Shown here: one piece after another, positions 30,601-43,847 of the stretch | How the letters are laid out: each line of letters starts with the position of its first letter | Position numbering within the stretch: the first letter of the stretch is position 1 | DNA from: a virus | DNA length: 43,847 nucleotides | Strand: one strand, 5' to 3' | IMG/VR virus record: IMGVR_UViG_3300034066_001555 | Coordinates: 1 to 43,847 of that record | The notes under the pieces: generated by a model | Databases searched by the model: none | The model's input: only the letters and a program-made list of their open reading frames with translations | What the model was told of the DNA's origin: nothing | Made by a program: the position numbers and the translations under genes

Positions 30601-33600
30601 TTGAACTTAATGCATCTTCAGCACTTTTTGAAAGTTTTATCTTATTATCGCTTATTTTTACGACATATACGTCATTGGGTAATTTATTGGTTGTTCCTAT
30701 CCCAACCCCAAAATTGGTAGTAACAATTCCAATAGAATTGTTACTTGAACTTGTTCCATTTGAATATGATATTTTTTCTCCAGTAACAAAGAAGTGATTT
30801 TCAATTTCTATCGTATTTGCTTCAATGTCTACAACAGATGTATTAGATGCATTAAAAATTCTCTTAAATATTGGATAATTATTGCTACTTAAAGAGAAAT
30901 CTTTTTTAGATACCTCATCACTGCTATCAAATTGAGAACTTATATCATCGATAGGTAAAACCAAATTTCCGGAGGATAGTATATAATCCTGCACCGTTTT
31001 ATTCTTAAATATGATTTCGTCAGAAACTAATGCTGAATCTAACTGGAAACTAGTTTCTGATGAAAGATCAAAGTAATAATTATTAAAATCAGACTTACTG
31101 AAAATATCTAATGTTATTGAGAGGTCTGACTGTTTTGTGGTGGATATGCCAACAAATTGACTAGATTCTAATTGATAATCAGAAAAAACTTTAAATCCTT
31201 TAGGATGATTTAGTGTTAAGACGGAATCTTTCCACGTATCATAATCAATTTTTGATTTTATTGAATATGCGAAATTTTGATAATAGAAACTATCTTGAAG
31301 TTTTTGTAACTTATCATTTAAAAATCCACTATTTTGATTCCATCCTTTGTTTACTTTTGTTTTTGAAGAAAGATTGGTTATAGATTTTGTTTCATAAATT
31401 TTTAAAATTTTTGATTTTGAACCTGTAGATTCTCCCTGAATAATTTCTCCAATTTCAAATTTTCTAGTTGGATTTGAGATAGTTATAAACCCAGAATATT
31501 CGTCCCAATTTGATATATATCCTTCAGACTCTTTAGAGAATTCTGTCTTGATTCTTTCTCCTATCAAATATTGTCCAACCTTTAATGATATATTGAATGA
31601 TGGGAAATATTTTTCTGGAATTACTCTTCCAAGGAGACTTGAAGGGTCAAAATCGCCAGGATCTTCATCAGAATTTAAATAATCATTTAAACTATATGTT
31701 ATTGTTCCTTGACTTAGCCCTGGATCATCTGTTGTATTTAATACAGAGAATAGTGTATAACTATAATTTTCAGAATTATACCCTATATCTTCATTATTTA
31801 ATACCTTCACATTTTCAATTATTACATTATCACCTTCTACAAATGGAAAATCTCCGTTGTATGTAAATGTAACAGTAACTATTTTAGTAATAGAATTAAA
31901 TACTACATTGATTATTCTAAATCCATTATTATTATTCGTTGGAATTATTTTTGGTGTCAGTCCACTTAAATTTGAAGTATTTTTCAGTATTTTTACATTA
32001 GTATCACTTAAAGAAAACTCTAAATCTAAGTCTGTTATTGGTTCTTTAGTTTTTTCATCAACTACTATTAATTTTGGTGGAGTAATATAATTTATTCCAA
32101 ACGAAGAAACTGTTATCTTATCTATTGAATATAAAGATTCTAATTTTAAAACCAATATTGGATAATTACTAGGCAATAATGTGTAATCGGAAGAGAAATC
32201 AAATCCTATATTATTGATTTTAGTACTTTTTATTATTCCAATAGATTCACTAAAGCAATCCAATAAAGCATCTTTTCCAATATTGGAGTTTATTTTTGTT
32301 ATTTTTGGTAGAGATAAGTAATTTCTACCTGGACTTGTTATTTTTATTTCAGAAATTGGACCAAATGCATCTTCGGAACTTGTATTATAAATTAAGGATG
32401 AAATTGTTGACGAATAAGAAACAACTTCGGGAGTATTTGGTAAAATATATTCAAATGTTGAAGTAGAATTACCCCCAACAAAAATCGGGTAATCTCCGGA
32501 ATATTCACTTTTTAATATTGATAATGTATTATTTGAAGATACTAATACATTATCAATTATAAGTTCTTCCTTTACTTTTGGATAAGAAATCCCATCACTA
32601 AAGGTAGGAACTAGTCTATAATATAATTTTTCAGGAAAGTCTTCTTTTACACTTAAGGTAATCTTTGCATCACTACTAATACCAACAGATCCTTGTTGAT
32701 TTATGATTAACTCTTCTTGGGAATTGACTATATCAAAACTATTTTTAAAATATGGATCAGTATAGAGTTCAAATTTAAATGCAGAATATGAGTTATTATT
32801 TGAAGTATATGATAAGGTAGAGTCTGACAAGTCAAATATAACTTCAGATTCTTTATATAGTCTTATTTCTGGATTAATTAATGAAATAGATCCATTAGAT
32901 TGAGAAGTTATTTCTAATGTTTTAGGATTTGTTGAGATTGAATTGTAATAGGAATCTGATAATTTTATAGTATCTTTATCCACTGAAAAAACATAATAAA
33001 TTTCATTATCTTTTAAAGTTTGTGTGGAGAGATCAGTATTGTATATTATTTTTTGTCCTGTTACAAAATTGTGATTACTAATTGAAATAGTTCCATTTAT
33101 TGTATTGATTCCTGAAGATACAAAACTTTTTGGGTTTACAATTAATCTTCTTTTTTTGTCATTGTATTTTATAATTATAGTATTTGAATTTTTAGGATTA
33201 ACATTTATTGAAACCAAATCCCCCGTTTTTAACCCATGAGTACTTCCAGTGGATACTGTAATTGTATTTTTTGATACTTGTCCATATATCTTATCATAAT
33301 TTGTTTTAAAGCTATGATAAGTTGCTGTTCCTATTCCCAAAAGATATAAAGTTGTTGAATTTTTAGTTTGGCTAGTAATACCGGCAAAACCTCCAGTACT
33401 ACCAATGCCCACCTTTACAGTTGCAATTCCTATGAGATCTTCCGAAATCTTTGCTACAAAAACTTTAGAATAATTTGACAACGAAACACTAGAGATTCCA
33501 TTTATTGATACTTGTATAGAAGAACCTCCATTGGGGGAATAAATTAATTCGTCTCCAGTATTTAATTTATGATTTGGTAAATAAATTGTTTTAGAGGGAA

Positions 33601-38545: not shown

Positions 38546-40456
38546 TTAGGATCTTACTAAGTTTCCATTAGTGTAACTTGAGGACACAATATAATTTGAT
38601 GCGGAAGGATCTGCTCCTGAGGAAATCTCATCAACAACCATTTCAAATAAACTGCTATTAATATCTAGTTGTAAATATAAATCCTGTAATCCAATTACAT
38701 CGTTTGATTTTGGGGTGGTTGATATTTGAATTGTGGGTTGTCCATTTATTATTTTTTCTGTTGAAATTATATTTAATGGATTTAAATTAATAATTCCTTT
38801 TTTATAATCTACAGTTCCCGCATTTCTTATTACAATATTAAAATCAGTTGAATTTTTATTTGGCAAACTAAAGAAAAATATAATTCCAGTCTCTCTATCA
38901 GTGTTTGGTATATCCGATAAGTAAAGATCTTGCTGTATTCCAGACATTCTAAATGAAGATGATTTAATGTTAAATCCATTCAAGTCTGAAATATGAAATT
39001 GATTACCAAATCCAATAGAATAAGTTGCAAAGGAATTTAATACAACTCTTAAATCTCTACGTATTGAAATTTTTGTAATGTTTGAAGTAACTGCAGCATG
39101 ACTATCATCTACAACTTTCAAAAATTTACTGTATTTAAATCTTGCTCCATATTTATTTAATTCTGTAGACTTTGCATATTTATTTACATTATAGTTGATA
39201 CTTGTTAACACCTGATCCGGACCAGATGATAAATTTGGATTATAATAAATTTTAGAATCAGTTTCTATATACAGATATTTTAAATCTAGAATTTCGGGAA
39301 CTATTCCCGCCACTGCATATTGCTTTAGTTTTGTTTTTATATTTTCTTTAATTAAATTTGGTAAAAATTCACCAGTTCTGGGTTTAATGCTGATAAAGAC
39401 CTTTCCATACTGAGGTGGAATCAATTCTTCCCCACCAAAAACAGAAATAGATTCTGTTTCTGGATATATTACATTCTTGACTAAAGATTCATAATCATTT
39501 GATGTTACTGCTCTGTTCTGTGAAGCATATATTCTTCCGGAGTATTTTTTAACAGATTCGATTGATTCAATATCTTCTCCCCCAGATGAAATTAAACCAG
39601 TTGTTAATAAAGAAATTCCTGAAGTAATATTTTCGTTATTGGAAGATTTTAATAACCCAGAAAAAGAAAATTGAGAGATTCCATTTCCAGATTCGCCATT
39701 GGACACAATATATGAAACCTCTATCTCATCATTATTCTGCAAAGATTCTCCAAAAATACCATCTCCAAAAATTATTTCATATCTTTCATCATCTACTTCT
39801 TGTATAAAAAATACTTTAGAGTTTTTATCTATTTCTAAAATATTTTTATGAAGGATATAGTTTGATTTAACTCCAGATCTCTCTACAGATACTGAAAGTA
39901 ACTCAGTATCAATACCGGGGTTTGGTAAAATAAATCTCTGATTTAAGTTATTCGTATTATATGTAAATTTATTGGTGACTAAAGAACCTTCATAGATTTT
40001 TATATCATCAAAAGATGCTACTCCATTTAGAACTGGTTTTGTAATGTTCTCTAATATGGAAAATACAAATGATTGATTTGAAAAACTTTTTGAACTGGTG
40101 GATATTATTCCCTTATTAAGAGTCACAAAAGAACTCTGTAAATCTGAATTTGAAAAATCTACAAAAAAACTTACGGTCGCTCTTGCAGATTTTCTAGATC
40201 TAGGTATATACCCTATATTTCTAGCAAGAGAAATAACATTTTCCCTTAATGTAGCACTATCAATAAAAACCTCATTTGCGACCATATTCGCATTATATGA
40301 GGTGATATAGGTATTATATGCTAATACGTCTAAAATTGTGGAAAGATTAGAACCTTCAAAATTATAATCAGTAAAATTTGAGTTTGACCTCAAATAATCT
40401 TTTATTGTTGTTTTGATTTGATCAAAATCTAAATTTGAAAAATTTGTTAATGTCAT
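38546..40456 (-). CDS. 6: Baseplate wedge protein gp6
   Basis: gp6 forms the continuous ring that holds the wedges together and controls the baseplate switch. It has 636 residues (T4: 660). Family blocks are the N-terminal DFDQIKTTIKDYLRSNSNF and LSTILDVLAYNTYITSYNAN with MVANEVFIDSATLRENVISL, and the segment FGDGIFGESLQNNDEIEVSY. The J-like core is SGRIYASQNRAVTSNDYESL with PPQYGKVFISIKPRTGEFL. The ATG directly follows the gp25 stop (TAA-ATG, no gap), and the giant gene follows after 6 bases, so gp25, gp6 and the giant are one operon. Confidence 0.97.
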   Translation of the reverse strand: MTLTNFSNLDFDQIKTTIKDYLRSNSNFTDYNFEGSNLSTILDVLAYNTYITSYNANMVANEVFIDSATLRENVISLARNIGYIPRSRKSARATVSFFVDFSNSDLQSSFVTLNKGIISTSSKSFSNQSFVFSILENITKPVLNGVASFDDIKIYEGSLVTNKFTYNTNNLNQRFILPNPGIDTELLSVSVERSGVKSNYILHKNILEIDKNSKVFFIQEVDDERYEIIFGDGIFGESLQNNDEIEVSYIVSNGESGNGISQFSFSGLLKSSNNENITSGISLLTTGLISSGGEDIESIESVKKYSGRIYASQNRAVTSNDYESLVKNVIYPETESISVFGGEELIPPQYGKVFISIKPRTGEFLPNLIKENIKTKLKQYAVAGIVPEILDLKYLYIETDSKIYYNPNLSSGPDQVLTSINYNVNKYAKSTELNKYGARFKYSKFLKVVDDSHAAVTSNITKISIRRDLRVVLNSFATYSIGFGNQFHISDLNGFNIKSSSFRMSGIQQDLYLSDIPNTDRETGIIFFFSLPNKNSTDFNIVIRNAGTVDYKKGIINLNPLNIISTEKIINGQPTIQISTTPKSNDVIGLQDLYLQLDINSSLFEMVVDEISSGADPSASNYIVSSSYTNGNLVRS

Positions 40457-40858
40457 TTATCTAGAAGGAAGTAATACAAATTCTAACTGTTGGGGTTGTA
40501 CATCTGCACCAATAATTCTATAGATTATTGTGACATTAAATGAATTATTGTCATACTCTGGAACAACACTAACATCAATTAATTCAACTCTTGGTTCATA
40601 ATTTTCAATAGAATTTTCTATTTCATCCTTAATTGTGGTAGATGTAAGATCATCAAGGTTTTCAAATAGTGATTTTTTTACTTGAGAACCAAAAGAAGGA
40701 TTAAAAAATTTTTCTCCTGGTTGAGTAAGTACAATATTTCTCATAGAACGAGCAATCGCAGTTTCATTTTTAATTCCAATAAGATCATTATTCAGAGGAT
40801 TAGTCTGAAATGACATACTTATATCTTTAAAACCACTACTTACTCGTTCTAAAGGCAT
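40457..40858 (-). CDS. 25: Baseplate wedge protein gp25 (lysozyme-like fold family)
   Basis: gp25 sits at the inner baseplate and templates sheath assembly. It has 133 residues, matching the family length (T4: 132). Typical features are GIKNETAIARSMRNIVLTQP, GEKFFNPSFGSQV, and the conserved Glu-Pro-Arg in ENYEPRVELIDVSV. The C-terminal half holds the expected beta strands with NSFNVTIIYRIIGADVQPQ. A GATAAATA octamer lies about 22 bases before the ATG. It heads the baseplate operon. Confidence 0.97.
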   Translation of the reverse strand: MPLERVSSGFKDISMSFQTNPLNNDLIGIKNETAIARSMRNIVLTQPGEKFFNPSFGSQVKKSLFENLDDLTSTTIKDEIENSIENYEPRVELIDVSVVPEYDNNSFNVTIIYRIIGADVQPQQLEFVLLPSR

Positions 40859-40879
40859 ATTAAATTTAAAATTTAATAT

Positions 40880-40887
40880 TATTTATC
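40880..40887 (-). promoter_or_regulatory. Late-type promoter octamer GATAAATA before gp25
   Basis: GATAAATA on the minus strand overlaps the TGA stop of the 84-residue gene and lies about 22 bases before the gp25 ATG. It probably drives gp25, gp6 and the 3615-residue gene. Confidence 0.52.
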
Positions 40888-41140
40888 ATAGATTTTTTGA
40901 TTCGTAAATGGGTTCCGTGCCATATTCCCAATCATCATAATCATTATCATTTCTAATTTTTGAATGAATGTCGTTTTGATGATAAAAATCGTGTTTTTTC
41001 GGTGTCAAATCATCATTTGCAATCTCACGAAGCATTTTTTGAGGTGCAATTTTAGATTCCCAACCATATTCAGATGACAAATACCGAGTTCCCCATTGAG
41101 AGTTCATAAAATTTTGATCTTTATCGACTTGTTTAGTCAT
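40886..41140 (-). CDS. Hypothetical polar protein, 84 aa
   Basis: No family is recognised. The protein is strongly polar, with many Asp, Asn, Lys and Tyr and no membrane segment. It begins MTKQVDKDQNFMNSQWGTRY, continues SSEYGWESKIAPQKMLREIA and ends in an acidic aromatic tail (DYDDWEYGTEPIYESKNL). An SD-like AGGAG lies seven bases before the ATG. The short (57-base) gap upstream contains a 5-bp GC-rich inverted repeat of doubtful meaning. It lies just before gp25, so it may be coregulated with baseplate genes, but its role is unknown. Confidence 0.75.
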   Translation of the reverse strand: MTKQVDKDQNFMNSQWGTRYLSSEYGWESKIAPQKMLREIANDDLTPKKHDFYHQNDIHSKIRNDNDYDDWEYGTEPIYESKNL

Positions 41141-41951: not shown

Positions 41952-42104
41952 TTAGATTTCCTCCAATTCTATAAGTTCTGGATCAATTAGTTCTCCCGAG
42001 AAAAAAGATTCTGAGAAGTCCTGTAGAATCTCACTACATTCTTCTGCAGTGAGATTTGTATAAATTTTACGCCCTTTGTAAAGGACATTGTAAAGTTTAT
42101 TCAT
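41952..42104 (-). CDS. Hypothetical small protein, 50 aa
   Basis: The 50-residue product starts MNKLYNVLYKGRKIYTNLTA and ends in an acidic tail LIDPELIELEEI. Its start overlaps the stop of the glycosyltransferase gene as TAATG. The layout (short Y-x-V-x-Y-K-G strand pair, then T-A-E-E-C helix, then acidic tail) resembles the 65-residue protein encoded at 42920-43117, suggesting the two are related. The composition fits a small soluble alpha/beta protein. Function is unknown. Confidence 0.8.
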   Translation of the reverse strand: MNKLYNVLYKGRKIYTNLTAEECSEILQDFSESFFSGELIDPELIELEEI

Positions 42105-42871
42105 TAGATAATACGAGTTTTCTCATGACCAACTCTAATACGAGGATCGCACCAGATTTTGTATCCCTTATCAATAGCATCAAGACAGAAAGAAACATCT
42201 TCTCCACACATATCTTGAACTGCGCCTGACTCAAAGACTTGCATCTTTGGAGCAAACCAAGGATACTCAAGATTCTCAAAAACTCCTTTCTTAATCAATA
42301 CCCAACCAAAACCAGTGTAATCAACTGTAAATGGCTTCTTACGCTTTGTGATAGACTCTACAGTTTCGTGATTCATGACTCCACCATTCTTGCGGAAATC
42401 ATCTTCTTCCAACCAGTGTGCGACAGAAGTTGTGTGACCATCTTCAGTTGCATACCAACCAGCAACTACTTCACGATTTTCTCCTTCTTCATTCAAAGCA
42501 AGATCACAGAGTTGCCAGAATTTGTTAGAATCAAAGACAATATCCGAGTCAATCCAAAGTTGATAATCATATTCAAGTTTTCCGTCCCAAGGAATTTGTT
42601 TTGGTCCCCTTAGAACATTTGCTCCAAGACATTTGCATCGCGCAAAATTAACCATTGACGAATAATCTTGGGAGATCTGAATGCTCATTCCATTCTGTAC
42701 AATATCAAAACAAAGTTGTACAAATGCTTTCAAAAAGATAAAAGAACATCCTCGACCGGGCAAACAAAAAACAATCGATTTTCCTCGCATCCTTTCTTTA
42801 ATAGCATCATAATCCCACTCTTGAGATGTGGGTTTTGGTGCTGTCGCTTTAACAGTAAATCCTTTTGCCAT
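42104..42871 (-). CDS. Putative GT-A-fold glycosyltransferase, 255 aa
   Basis: This probably transfers a sugar from a nucleotide sugar to an unknown acceptor (virion protein, DNA or host surface). Evidence: an N-terminal strand KSIVFCLPGRGCS (31-43), the FARCKCLGANVL segment (76-87), a D-x-D type metal-binding motif W-I-D-S-D-I-V-F with Asp108 and Asp110, a GFGWVLIKKGVF acceptor-side segment, GEDVSFCLDAIDKGY as in family 2-like enzymes, and a late His in VGHEKT (His249). It is 255 residues, a single catalytic domain, with no signal peptide or membrane anchor. It heads a small operon behind a sigma70-like promoter; the 50-residue gene overlaps its stop. The fold call is good; the substrate is unknown. 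Confidence 0.8.
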   Translation of the reverse strand: MAKGFTVKATAPKPTSQEWDYDAIKERMRGKSIVFCLPGRGCSFIFLKAFVQLCFDIVQNGMSIQISQDYSSMVNFARCKCLGANVLRGPKQIPWDGKLEYDYQLWIDSDIVFDSNKFWQLCDLALNEEGENREVVAGWYATEDGHTTSVAHWLEEDDFRKNGGVMNHETVESITKRKKPFTVDYTGFGWVLIKKGVFENLEYPWFAPKMQVFESGAVQDMCGEDVSFCLDAIDKGYKIWCDPRIRVGHEKTRII

Positions 42872-42893: not shown

Positions 42894-42923
42894 ATTTTAA
42901 CAGTCTATATATGCAGTTGTCAA
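42894..42923 (-). promoter_or_regulatory. Sigma70-like promoter before the glycosyltransferase gene
   Basis: On the minus strand a perfect -35 TTGACA (42918-42923) and a -10-like TAAAAT (42894-42899) are separated by 18 bases and end about 23 bases before the ATG of the glycosyltransferase gene. The -35 overlaps the stop of the 65-residue gene. This contrasts with the NATAAATA late-type sites elsewhere and suggests early or host-sigma expression of this operon. Confidence 0.5.
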
Positions 42924-43117
42924 TGTGAAGAGTTTAAACTCATTTCTTTCTGAAAAATCAATTCCTCATAGGATAAGTCTTCTATAACATAGTCAGTTTT
43001 CATAATTCCTACCATATTATTAATGGTGCTCCAAGTTGTTTCGAATTCATCCTCTTTGATAGAATGAAATAAACACTTATCTTTTGCGTAGATGTGATAT
43101 ATTTTTTCTGTTTGCAT
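42920..43117 (-). CDS. Hypothetical small protein, 65 aa
   Basis: The product begins MQTEKIYHIYAKDKCLFHSI and continues with a helix KEDEFETTWSTINNMVGIM and an acidic segment YVIEDLSYEELIFQKEM. Similar short proteins with the H-I-Y-A-K-D-K-C-L motif are common in T4-like cyanophages, from memory. It resembles the 50-residue protein encoded at 41952-42104 in layout. The leader is a run of A and T tracts with no obvious Shine-Dalgarno, and the palindrome at 43144-43162 lies just upstream. Function is unknown. Confidence 0.78.
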   Translation of the reverse strand: MQTEKIYHIYAKDKCLFHSIKEDEFETTWSTINNMVGIMKTDYVIEDLSYEELIFQKEMSLNSSH

Positions 43118-43143: not shown

Positions 43144-43162
43144 TGGTAAAATTATTTTACCA
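43144..43162. repeat. 19-base perfect palindrome at the end of the 47-aa gene
   Basis: TGGTAAAAT, one central base, then ATTTTACCA form a perfect inverted repeat that includes the last codons and stop of the 47-residue gene. Neither strand has a U-tract immediately after the repeat in the sense direction, so a standard terminator is doubtful. An operator or RNA-stabilising hairpin is possible. Confidence 0.6.
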
Positions 43163-43295
43163 GTGCATTATATATCAGACTAATCAAAATACCAAGAGAT
43201 GTTAATGAAATTCTACTCATTTGCTTTGGATATCTGATTATCCATCCTGCAAGTATCACTCTCCAAAAATTCCAATATGGCGCTGATTTTTTCAT
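43152..43295 (-). CDS. Small membrane protein, 47 aa
   Basis: The product begins MKKSAPYWNFWRVILAGWII, with a Trp-rich amphipathic segment and then RYPKQMSRISLTSL, and ends in a hydrophobic helix GILISLIYNALVK that is long enough, with its flanks, to insert in a membrane. I chose ATG 43295 because it overlaps the TGA of the upstream 45-residue gene as ATGA and is preceded by the purine-rich AAAGAAAGAAGAG. The same frame extends upstream to a TTG at 43406, but that part would duplicate the coding space of the 45-residue gene. It may be an inner-membrane effector; nothing identifies the target. Confidence 0.62.
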   Translation of the reverse strand: MKKSAPYWNFWRVILAGWIIRYPKQMSRISLTSLGILISLIYNALVK

Positions 43296-43429
43296 CTCTT
43301 CTTTCTTTTTGAGGATGCTCTTTTTTGAGCAGGAGTTCTGAAGATACCAGTTGCGCAATTTTTCTTTTTCTTGTGCTTGCCTCCGAAGATTCCCCATCCG
43401 TGGCAATTTGCTTTTCTTTTTGGAGACAT
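43292..43429 (-). CDS. Small basic Cys/His-containing protein, 45 aa
   Basis: The product reads MSPKRKANCHGWGIFGGKHK then KKKNCATGIFRTPAQKRASS and KRKKR. Sixteen of 45 residues are Lys or Arg. Cys9, His10, His19 and Cys25 could form a small metal site around the Gly-rich centre, and both ends are basic. The reading is supported by an ATG start and an ATGA overlap with the 47-residue gene downstream. There is no clear Shine-Dalgarno; the leader is A/T tracts. A nucleic-acid-binding peptide is a reasonable guess. The alternative is that the competing frame (TTG at 43406) is the translated one. Confidence 0.5.
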   Translation of the reverse strand: MSPKRKANCHGWGIFGGKHKKKKNCATGIFRTPAQKRASSKRKKR

Positions 43430-43512
43430 TTTTTTATGGAAAATTTTTTTTTTATGAGAGTGATAGATAGCTCGAAAAAGACATACAGTGTAGGTTAGGG
43501 TAGTGGGGCGTT

Positions 43513-43541
43513 TTTATATACGGGGCAACGCCCGATATAAA
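43513..43541. repeat. GC-capped hairpin
   Basis: TTTATAT, a one-base bulge, CGGG, a six-base loop GCAACG, CCCG and ATATAAA form an 11-bp stem. The upstream GGGCG at 43506-43510 could instead pair with CGCCC at 43529-43533, so two alternative structures compete. No U-tract follows on either strand. Confidence 0.6.
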
Positions 43542-43576
43542 CAATAACAAATAACATAAAATAACTGGTATAACGA

Positions 43577-43622
43577 ATAAACAACTGATAACGAATAAGT
43601 ATTAGTTATTCGTGTTGTTTAT
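43577..43622. repeat. Two-tier inverted repeat
   Basis: The outer arms ATAAACAAC (43577-43585) and GTTGTTTAT (43614-43622) are perfectly complementary. The inner arms ACGAATAA (43591-43598) and TTATTCGT (43606-43613) are also perfect, with a seven-base loop and a five-base one-sided bulge. Together they can form a 17-bp stem. Confidence 0.65.
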
Positions 43623-43664
43623 ACTAACTGCCCCCAAATTACTGTGTTATTAGAATAAAACAAC

Positions 43665-43718
43665 GCAGTTCTTATTACTTAAGCACGACAAAAACACTAC
43701 TTATATAATAAGAACTGC
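43665..43718. repeat. 13-bp perfect inverted repeat
   Basis: GCAGTTCTTATTA (43665-43677) and TAATAAGAACTGC (43706-43718) are exact reverse complements separated by 28 bases. The arms contain the GCAGTT element that recurs through the region. Confidence 0.7.
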
Positions 43719-43720
43719 CT

Positions 43721-43775
43721 ATTCTTTATACGAACTGCCGCCAATTAACGACGAATAGTAATAAGTATAAAGAAT
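43721..43775. repeat. 11-bp perfect inverted repeat
   Basis: ATTCTTTATAC (43721-43731) and GTATAAAGAAT (43765-43775) are exact reverse complements separated by 33 bases. The left arm adjoins a GGCAGTT copy and begins two bases after the previous inverted repeat. Confidence 0.65.
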
Positions 43776-43847
43776 TAAGTTGTCCAGAAAGATAAAAACA
43801 ATCAGACAAAGTAATAATAATAAACGAAACATCTATCAGACGATGTT

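Follow-up and report, generated by a model that had tools for sequence, protein, structure and literature searches.

A probable late-gene control region with a conserved single-copy box and a hairpin array in a marine T4-like cyanophage

What is the role of a gene-free block, dense in inverted repeats, that lies ahead of the structural genes of a phage? The window analysed here (43,847 nt, the whole of IMG/VR record IMGVR_UViG_3300034066_001555) is a fragment of a marine T4-like cyanophage of the Kyanoviridae, and the block in question (43430-43847) adjoins a 45-aa ORF on its upstream side and extends to the end of the contig. The description of this block as gene-free in an earlier, sequence-only reading is borne out, as the first minus-strand ORF begins only at 43429. 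A coding reading was rejected, neither strand holding an ORF of useful size. No tRNA or tmRNA was found in the block, and Rfam covariance models gave no match to it at the gathering threshold. The intergenic block measures about 470 nt in a near-identical relative; the window ends within the putative control region, and the 5' part of this region was taken from relatives.

Downstream of the block, the operon opens on the minus strand with an ORF for a basic protein of 45 aa (MSPKRKANC..., 43292-43429), for which we looked for a family match and found none; it differs from relatives L086 and L087 largely by synonymous-looking changes. The start of the second ORF (47 aa, MKKSAPYWNFW..., 43152-43295, minus strand) overlaps the stop of the first, and its PYWNFW-like motif recurs in the relative L029. 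Further along the same strand are a 65-aa protein (42920-43117; PHROG 2626) and a glycosyltransferase-like protein of 255 aa (42104-42871; PHROG 1574), the gene for which occurs in 103 phage records, cyanophage nearly throughout. The latter lies upstream of the minus-strand baseplate wedge genes gp25 (40457-40858; Pfam PF04965) and gp6 (38546-40456; Pfam PF21379 and PF21387), and a very long structural gene comes next on this strand. The late structural gene block consists of gp25 and gp6, then the remaining baseplate, tail and head genes. Within this long structural gene we also observe a 20-nt inverted repeat with 90% complementarity (32512-32562).

The most conserved part of the block is a 16-nt box, ACTACCCTAACCTACA (43489-43504, minus strand), which the sequence-only reading left unnamed. 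A search of the block against annotated phages shows about 46 nt conserved in cyanophages, and a core of about 31 nt is present in 282 cyanophage records, at essentially one place in each. Eight out of eleven complete cyanophage genomes carry the box once (Bellamy, ACG-2014d, P-SSM2, P-SSM4, S-SM2, S-CAM22, Syn9 and S-SSM7); it is absent from the complete genomes of S-PM2, S-RSM4 and P-HM1, and its function is thus not universal. The profile score at the element is 30 in Syn9, 58 in ACG-2014d and 70 in S-SM2, while the next best place scores -6.8 or lower, and a position weight matrix detects no second copy in these three genomes. Wherever a box locus has 5 kb or more of sequence downstream (59 loci), gp25/gp6 follow on the same strand. 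Because our alignment of 140 copies was fetched by the exact box pattern, conservation of the box letters is partly built into it. A set of 64 regions anchored on the glycosyltransferase-like gene is independent of that pattern and corrects for the bias: a strong box stands upstream of this gene in 53 of them, and variants such as TGGGTCCTATGTAACCTACA are found in most others. The element is also present on L236 and L237, contigs labelled as Chlamydiae and Euryarchaeota assemblies, which are probably misbinned cyanophage DNA. A literature search for the box letters returned unrelated papers only, and the box appears not to have been described before.

The surroundings of the box are rigidly spaced. 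Just upstream lies an A/T tract, ATATAAAAAC (43511-43520, minus strand), and the AAAA at -14 to -11, at a fixed distance from the box, is 96-100% A in 140 relatives. The alignment of these 140 copies is ungapped over the whole stretch that takes in the AAAA at -14, the box, G14, G25 and an ATAT at +34 to +37. Further observed between +12 and +27 past the box are distinct sequence classes (GAGGTGACAAATCG, AAGGTTCCCAAACG, AAGTGTTACGGAAGCG, ACGAACCAAAATCG and CTGTATGTCTTTTTCG) that are common to otherwise diverged phages. A common coding frame after the box was considered and rejected, since the 10-aa MSFSSYLSLS is found in one downstream class only and a GTG frame in another. A small hairpin around the TATAAAA beside the box was likewise discarded, its complementarity not exceeding that of permutations.

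About 30 nt downstream of the box, many relatives carry a motif resembling the late promoter. Of 118 relatives, 20 have TAAATA precisely at +31, with no other offset exceeding 4, and 21 have TATATA at +33. The match in the window is weak, the corresponding position (43462-43469, minus strand) holding the degenerate TATCTATC. The strand-biased late motif of Syn9 is NTAAATA; its form CTAAATA is found 23 times on the coding strand against twice on the opposite one, in keeping with the known cyanophage late promoter (PMC2984593). Another candidate late promoter, TATAAAAA upstream of the box, lacks such strand bias in Syn9 (8 versus 6) and was rejected.

Upstream of the box, 46% of the 117 relatives in a non-redundant set have a sense-strand sigma-70 promoter scoring at least 10.5, usually at a distance of 70-90 nt; the control rates are 2.6% for the reverse strand and 1.2% for shuffles. 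The best such score in the window is 8. Here and in the rest of the window's clade, the place of the sigma-70 promoter upstream of the box is occupied by an AT-rich array in which GGCAGTT units and hairpins are combined; only two out of 31 distinct array-bearing relatives retain a promoter scoring at least 10.5, so that the array apparently replaces it. GGCAGTT is present in 41 of 119 relatives, where 1.8 would be expected, and GGCAGT and GACAGT are each present in about half (about 5% expected). In many relatives with both elements, GGCAGTT or GACAGT lies no more than about 25 nt after the sigma-70 -10 element. This is specific to the locus rather than a general feature of sigma-70 promoters, as GGCAGTT is found at only one of 44 promoter hits in Syn9. 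Separately, the -35 hexamer (TTGACA) often forms part of the loop in a GC-rich hairpin such as GGGGGGCACGGTAGTTGACACTTTGCCCCC (seen in L024, L017, L006, L032 and L197); this hairpin is perhaps a terminator and promoter in one.

We judge it probable, at roughly 60%, that the block serves the late structural genes of this Kyanoviridae phage as transcription control region and 5' leader. This reading draws on sequence comparison, in which the A-tract, the box and the downstream AT-rich late-promoter-like site keep a fixed spacing in well over 100 relatives and, as a unit, precede gp25/gp6 on the same strand. The folding potential kept by array copies also speaks for it. The earlier suggestion of an origin or regulator-binding array survives in its regulatory half, as its position ahead of the baseplate operon in all testable relatives supports a regulatory non-coding region; the other half finds no origin signal in GC skew. 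A review describes genes of S-PM2 and Syn9 that are preceded by an early and a late promoter jointly, and T4-like cyanophages lack MotA and AsiA (PMC2984593). In early transcription, host RNA polymerase would start at the sigma-70 promoter, and in late transcription the gp55-modified polymerase would start downstream. A phage or host factor may recognise the box, either on the DNA or in the RNA as it is being made, and this recognition would time or favour transcription of the long late block. Several points count against such a composite promoter and control region: the late motif is poor in the window, array-bearing relatives seldom have a good sigma-70 promoter (the 2 of 31 noted above), one site per genome is unusual for a transcription factor, and the box is missing from three of the complete genomes.

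The array itself contains the four inverted repeats claimed by the sequence-only reading, all present at the places given and all described here on the minus strand. Nearest the box, hairpin D (43513-43541) has an 11-bp stem with one bulge, TTTATAT(A)CGGG/CCCGATATAAA, whose arms may also be given as TTTATATCGGG/CCCG(T)ATATAAA. Hairpin C (43577-43622) is two-tiered, with an outer stem of 9 bp (43577-43585/43614-43622) and an inner stem of 8 bp (43591-43598/43606-43613), the arms ACGAATAA/TTATTCGT of the latter enclosing the loop CTAATAC. Hairpin B (43665-43718) combines a perfect 13-bp repeat (43665-43677/43706-43718) with 4 inner bp; the repeat sits in a pair of 19-nt arms that are 89% complementary, and the hairpin contains GGCAGTT. 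Hairpin A (43721-43775) has perfect 11-bp arms, ATTCTTTATAC/GTATAAAGAAT (43721-43731/43765-43775). We also recover the three GGCAGTT units on the minus strand (43626-43632, 43713-43719 and 43733-43739) and the one inverted GCAGTT (at 43665). GGCAGTT is absent elsewhere in the 43.8 kb, and its count of three is at chance level for the window (mean 2.3); the clustering of all three within 114 bases is not what chance would give. The copies are unevenly spaced, at 20 and 87 nt. A pattern search finds the central hairpin on 45 contigs. In a control region, the array of the window's clade would most likely serve as a structured leader or factor-binding array, evolving through duplication and inversion of short repeats.

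Changes among close relatives bear on a possible but less likely alternative, in which replication slippage and template switching in an AT-rich spacer free of constraint gave rise to the hairpin array, the box excepted, as a by-product. The 7-nt loop of hairpin C (43591-43613) is inverted between near-identical phages, reading CTAATAC in some and GTATTAG in others (compared across L002, L086, L089, L093, L241 and L258). On a tree of the flanks, most branches of which are weakly supported, this amounts to about four changes, and a supported clade contains at least one nested reversal. If the arms pair in DNA and copying crosses the loop, inversions of this kind are to be expected. By eye, the array upstream of the box shows tandem copies of about 83 nt and about 47 nt (L254, L264 and L245), and those in L254 and L245 also favour slippage. 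Against an unconstrained spacer, the ACGAATAA/TTATTCGT arms of hairpin C are invariant while the loops vary, in a wider set that was fetched with this arm motif itself, and GGCAGT is conserved in relatives that lack the array.

A more doubtful proposal concerns the box: it may be a master site of the whole Kyanoviridae family, either a replication origin or an operon-wide antitermination site, read by a putative conserved phage protein, with the array as a lineage-specific replacement of the adjoining promoter. An origin would account for the single copy of the box per genome. GGCAGTT iterons, or a leader RNA priming an R-loop, would act there together with an initiator on the box, as at T4 oriE, or at oriF with its promoter and unwinding element. 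The direct repeats, the AT-rich stretch and the early promoter of relatives fit such an origin; T4 oriE contains iterons of 12 nt together with an early promoter (PMC3016281), and a single theta origin has been predicted for Syn9 (PMC2984593). The expected signature of replication start is nevertheless missing from the GC skew of three genomes: in Syn9, ACG-2014d and S-SM2, neither GC nor TA skew switches at the box, four-fold sites included, and the extremes of cumulative skew lie away from it. Moreover, repeat number varies, many relatives have a single unit, and the role of the T4 iterons is itself unproven (PMC3016281). We thus regard an origin as unlikely.

We consider equally unlikely the second form of this proposal, in which the box, as part of a polarity-suppressing or antitermination leader, is read in the strand transcribed early, or in RNA, and converts the RNA polymerase that transcribes the long late block. 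A leader site of the ops type would also explain the single copy. The box is indeed short, conserved and single-copy, and it lies in the leader ahead of a very long run of genes on one strand, with hairpins nearby and, in many relatives, a sigma-70 promoter about 80 nt upstream. However, a site of this kind needs no rigid spacing to a downstream late-type promoter, and the late genes possess late promoters of their own.

Whether the array acts through RNA structure can be addressed by folding. Against dinucleotide shuffles, the 418-nt block has a fold z-score of -5.15 on the minus strand and -5.66 on the plus strand, and 0 of 100 shuffles fold as well. The earlier claim that nothing else in the window resembles it stands only in part: among 104 tiles of 418 nt (mean z -1.24) the block ranks second (-4.9), and tile 40504-40921 is stronger (-5.2). 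That tile, as extreme as the block, covers gp25 and its upstream end, and includes perfect 11-bp arms, ATATTAAATTT/AAATTTAATAT, at 40857-40879. Across an alignment of ten relatives, pairing is kept in 95.6% of paired cells, yet most pairs never vary, and the eight inner pairs of hairpin C are invariant in all ten. The compensatory changes proposed as support for the stems do not emerge convincingly, since only two pairs have changed on both sides and 119 of 500 shuffles reach as many. Stems are unchanged in close relatives and are broken without compensation in L129, L131 and L207. Seventeen diverged arrays nonetheless fold strongly (mean z -4.1, versus -2.2 for other relatives), and GGCAGTT is flanked by arms whose complementarity exceeds that of permuted arms (z 4.9); for related sequences such as these, neither E-values nor permutation tests are wholly independent. 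Retained pairing potential is thus favoured over conservation of individual stems, and the multi-stem RNA of the sequence-only reading is weakly supported, fold potential being kept in diverged arrays and the stems lacking convincing covariation. That the array yields a stand-alone structured small RNA is very unlikely, as the strong folding (z about -5), its retention in the 17 diverged arrays and the complementary arms around GGCAGTT are set against unconvincing compensatory changes, stems that break in three relatives, equal folding of both strands as in palindromic DNA, and the lack of an Rfam match.

Under the preferred reading as a late-gene control region, the box would offer a specific site to mutate in T4-like cyanophages, in which the timing of early, middle and late transcription is unsettled, and a bait for its putative factor. 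It is also a usable marker with which to locate the late gene block when cyanophage contigs are fragmentary.

Among known systems, the cyanophage RNAs PhotoRC-II, wcaG, manA and CfrI are likewise non-coding and lie upstream of or antisense to genes; the block differs in having no Rfam match and in its different genes. The T4 oriE region is similar in adjoining baseplate genes and in its direct repeats and early promoter, the last found here in relatives, whereas the repeats at our locus are unevenly spaced and variable in number, and the box shows no compositional shift. In ops/RfaH and the put RNA of HK022, a very long operon carries one short conserved site in its leader, and in leaders of the ops/RfaH type a NusG-like factor modifies the polymerase at the site. 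The box is alike as a single short leader site, but its sequence is unrelated and it is tied to a downstream late-type promoter. A further parallel comes from S-PM2, Syn9 and RB49, where early (sigma-70) and late (NATAAATA) promoters occur jointly and, as in many relatives of this phage, a sigma-70-type element lies upstream and a late-type motif downstream. The window's clade departs from this layout in lacking the sigma-70 part, and the locus as a whole departs from it in placing a rigidly spaced, single-copy 16-nt box between the two.
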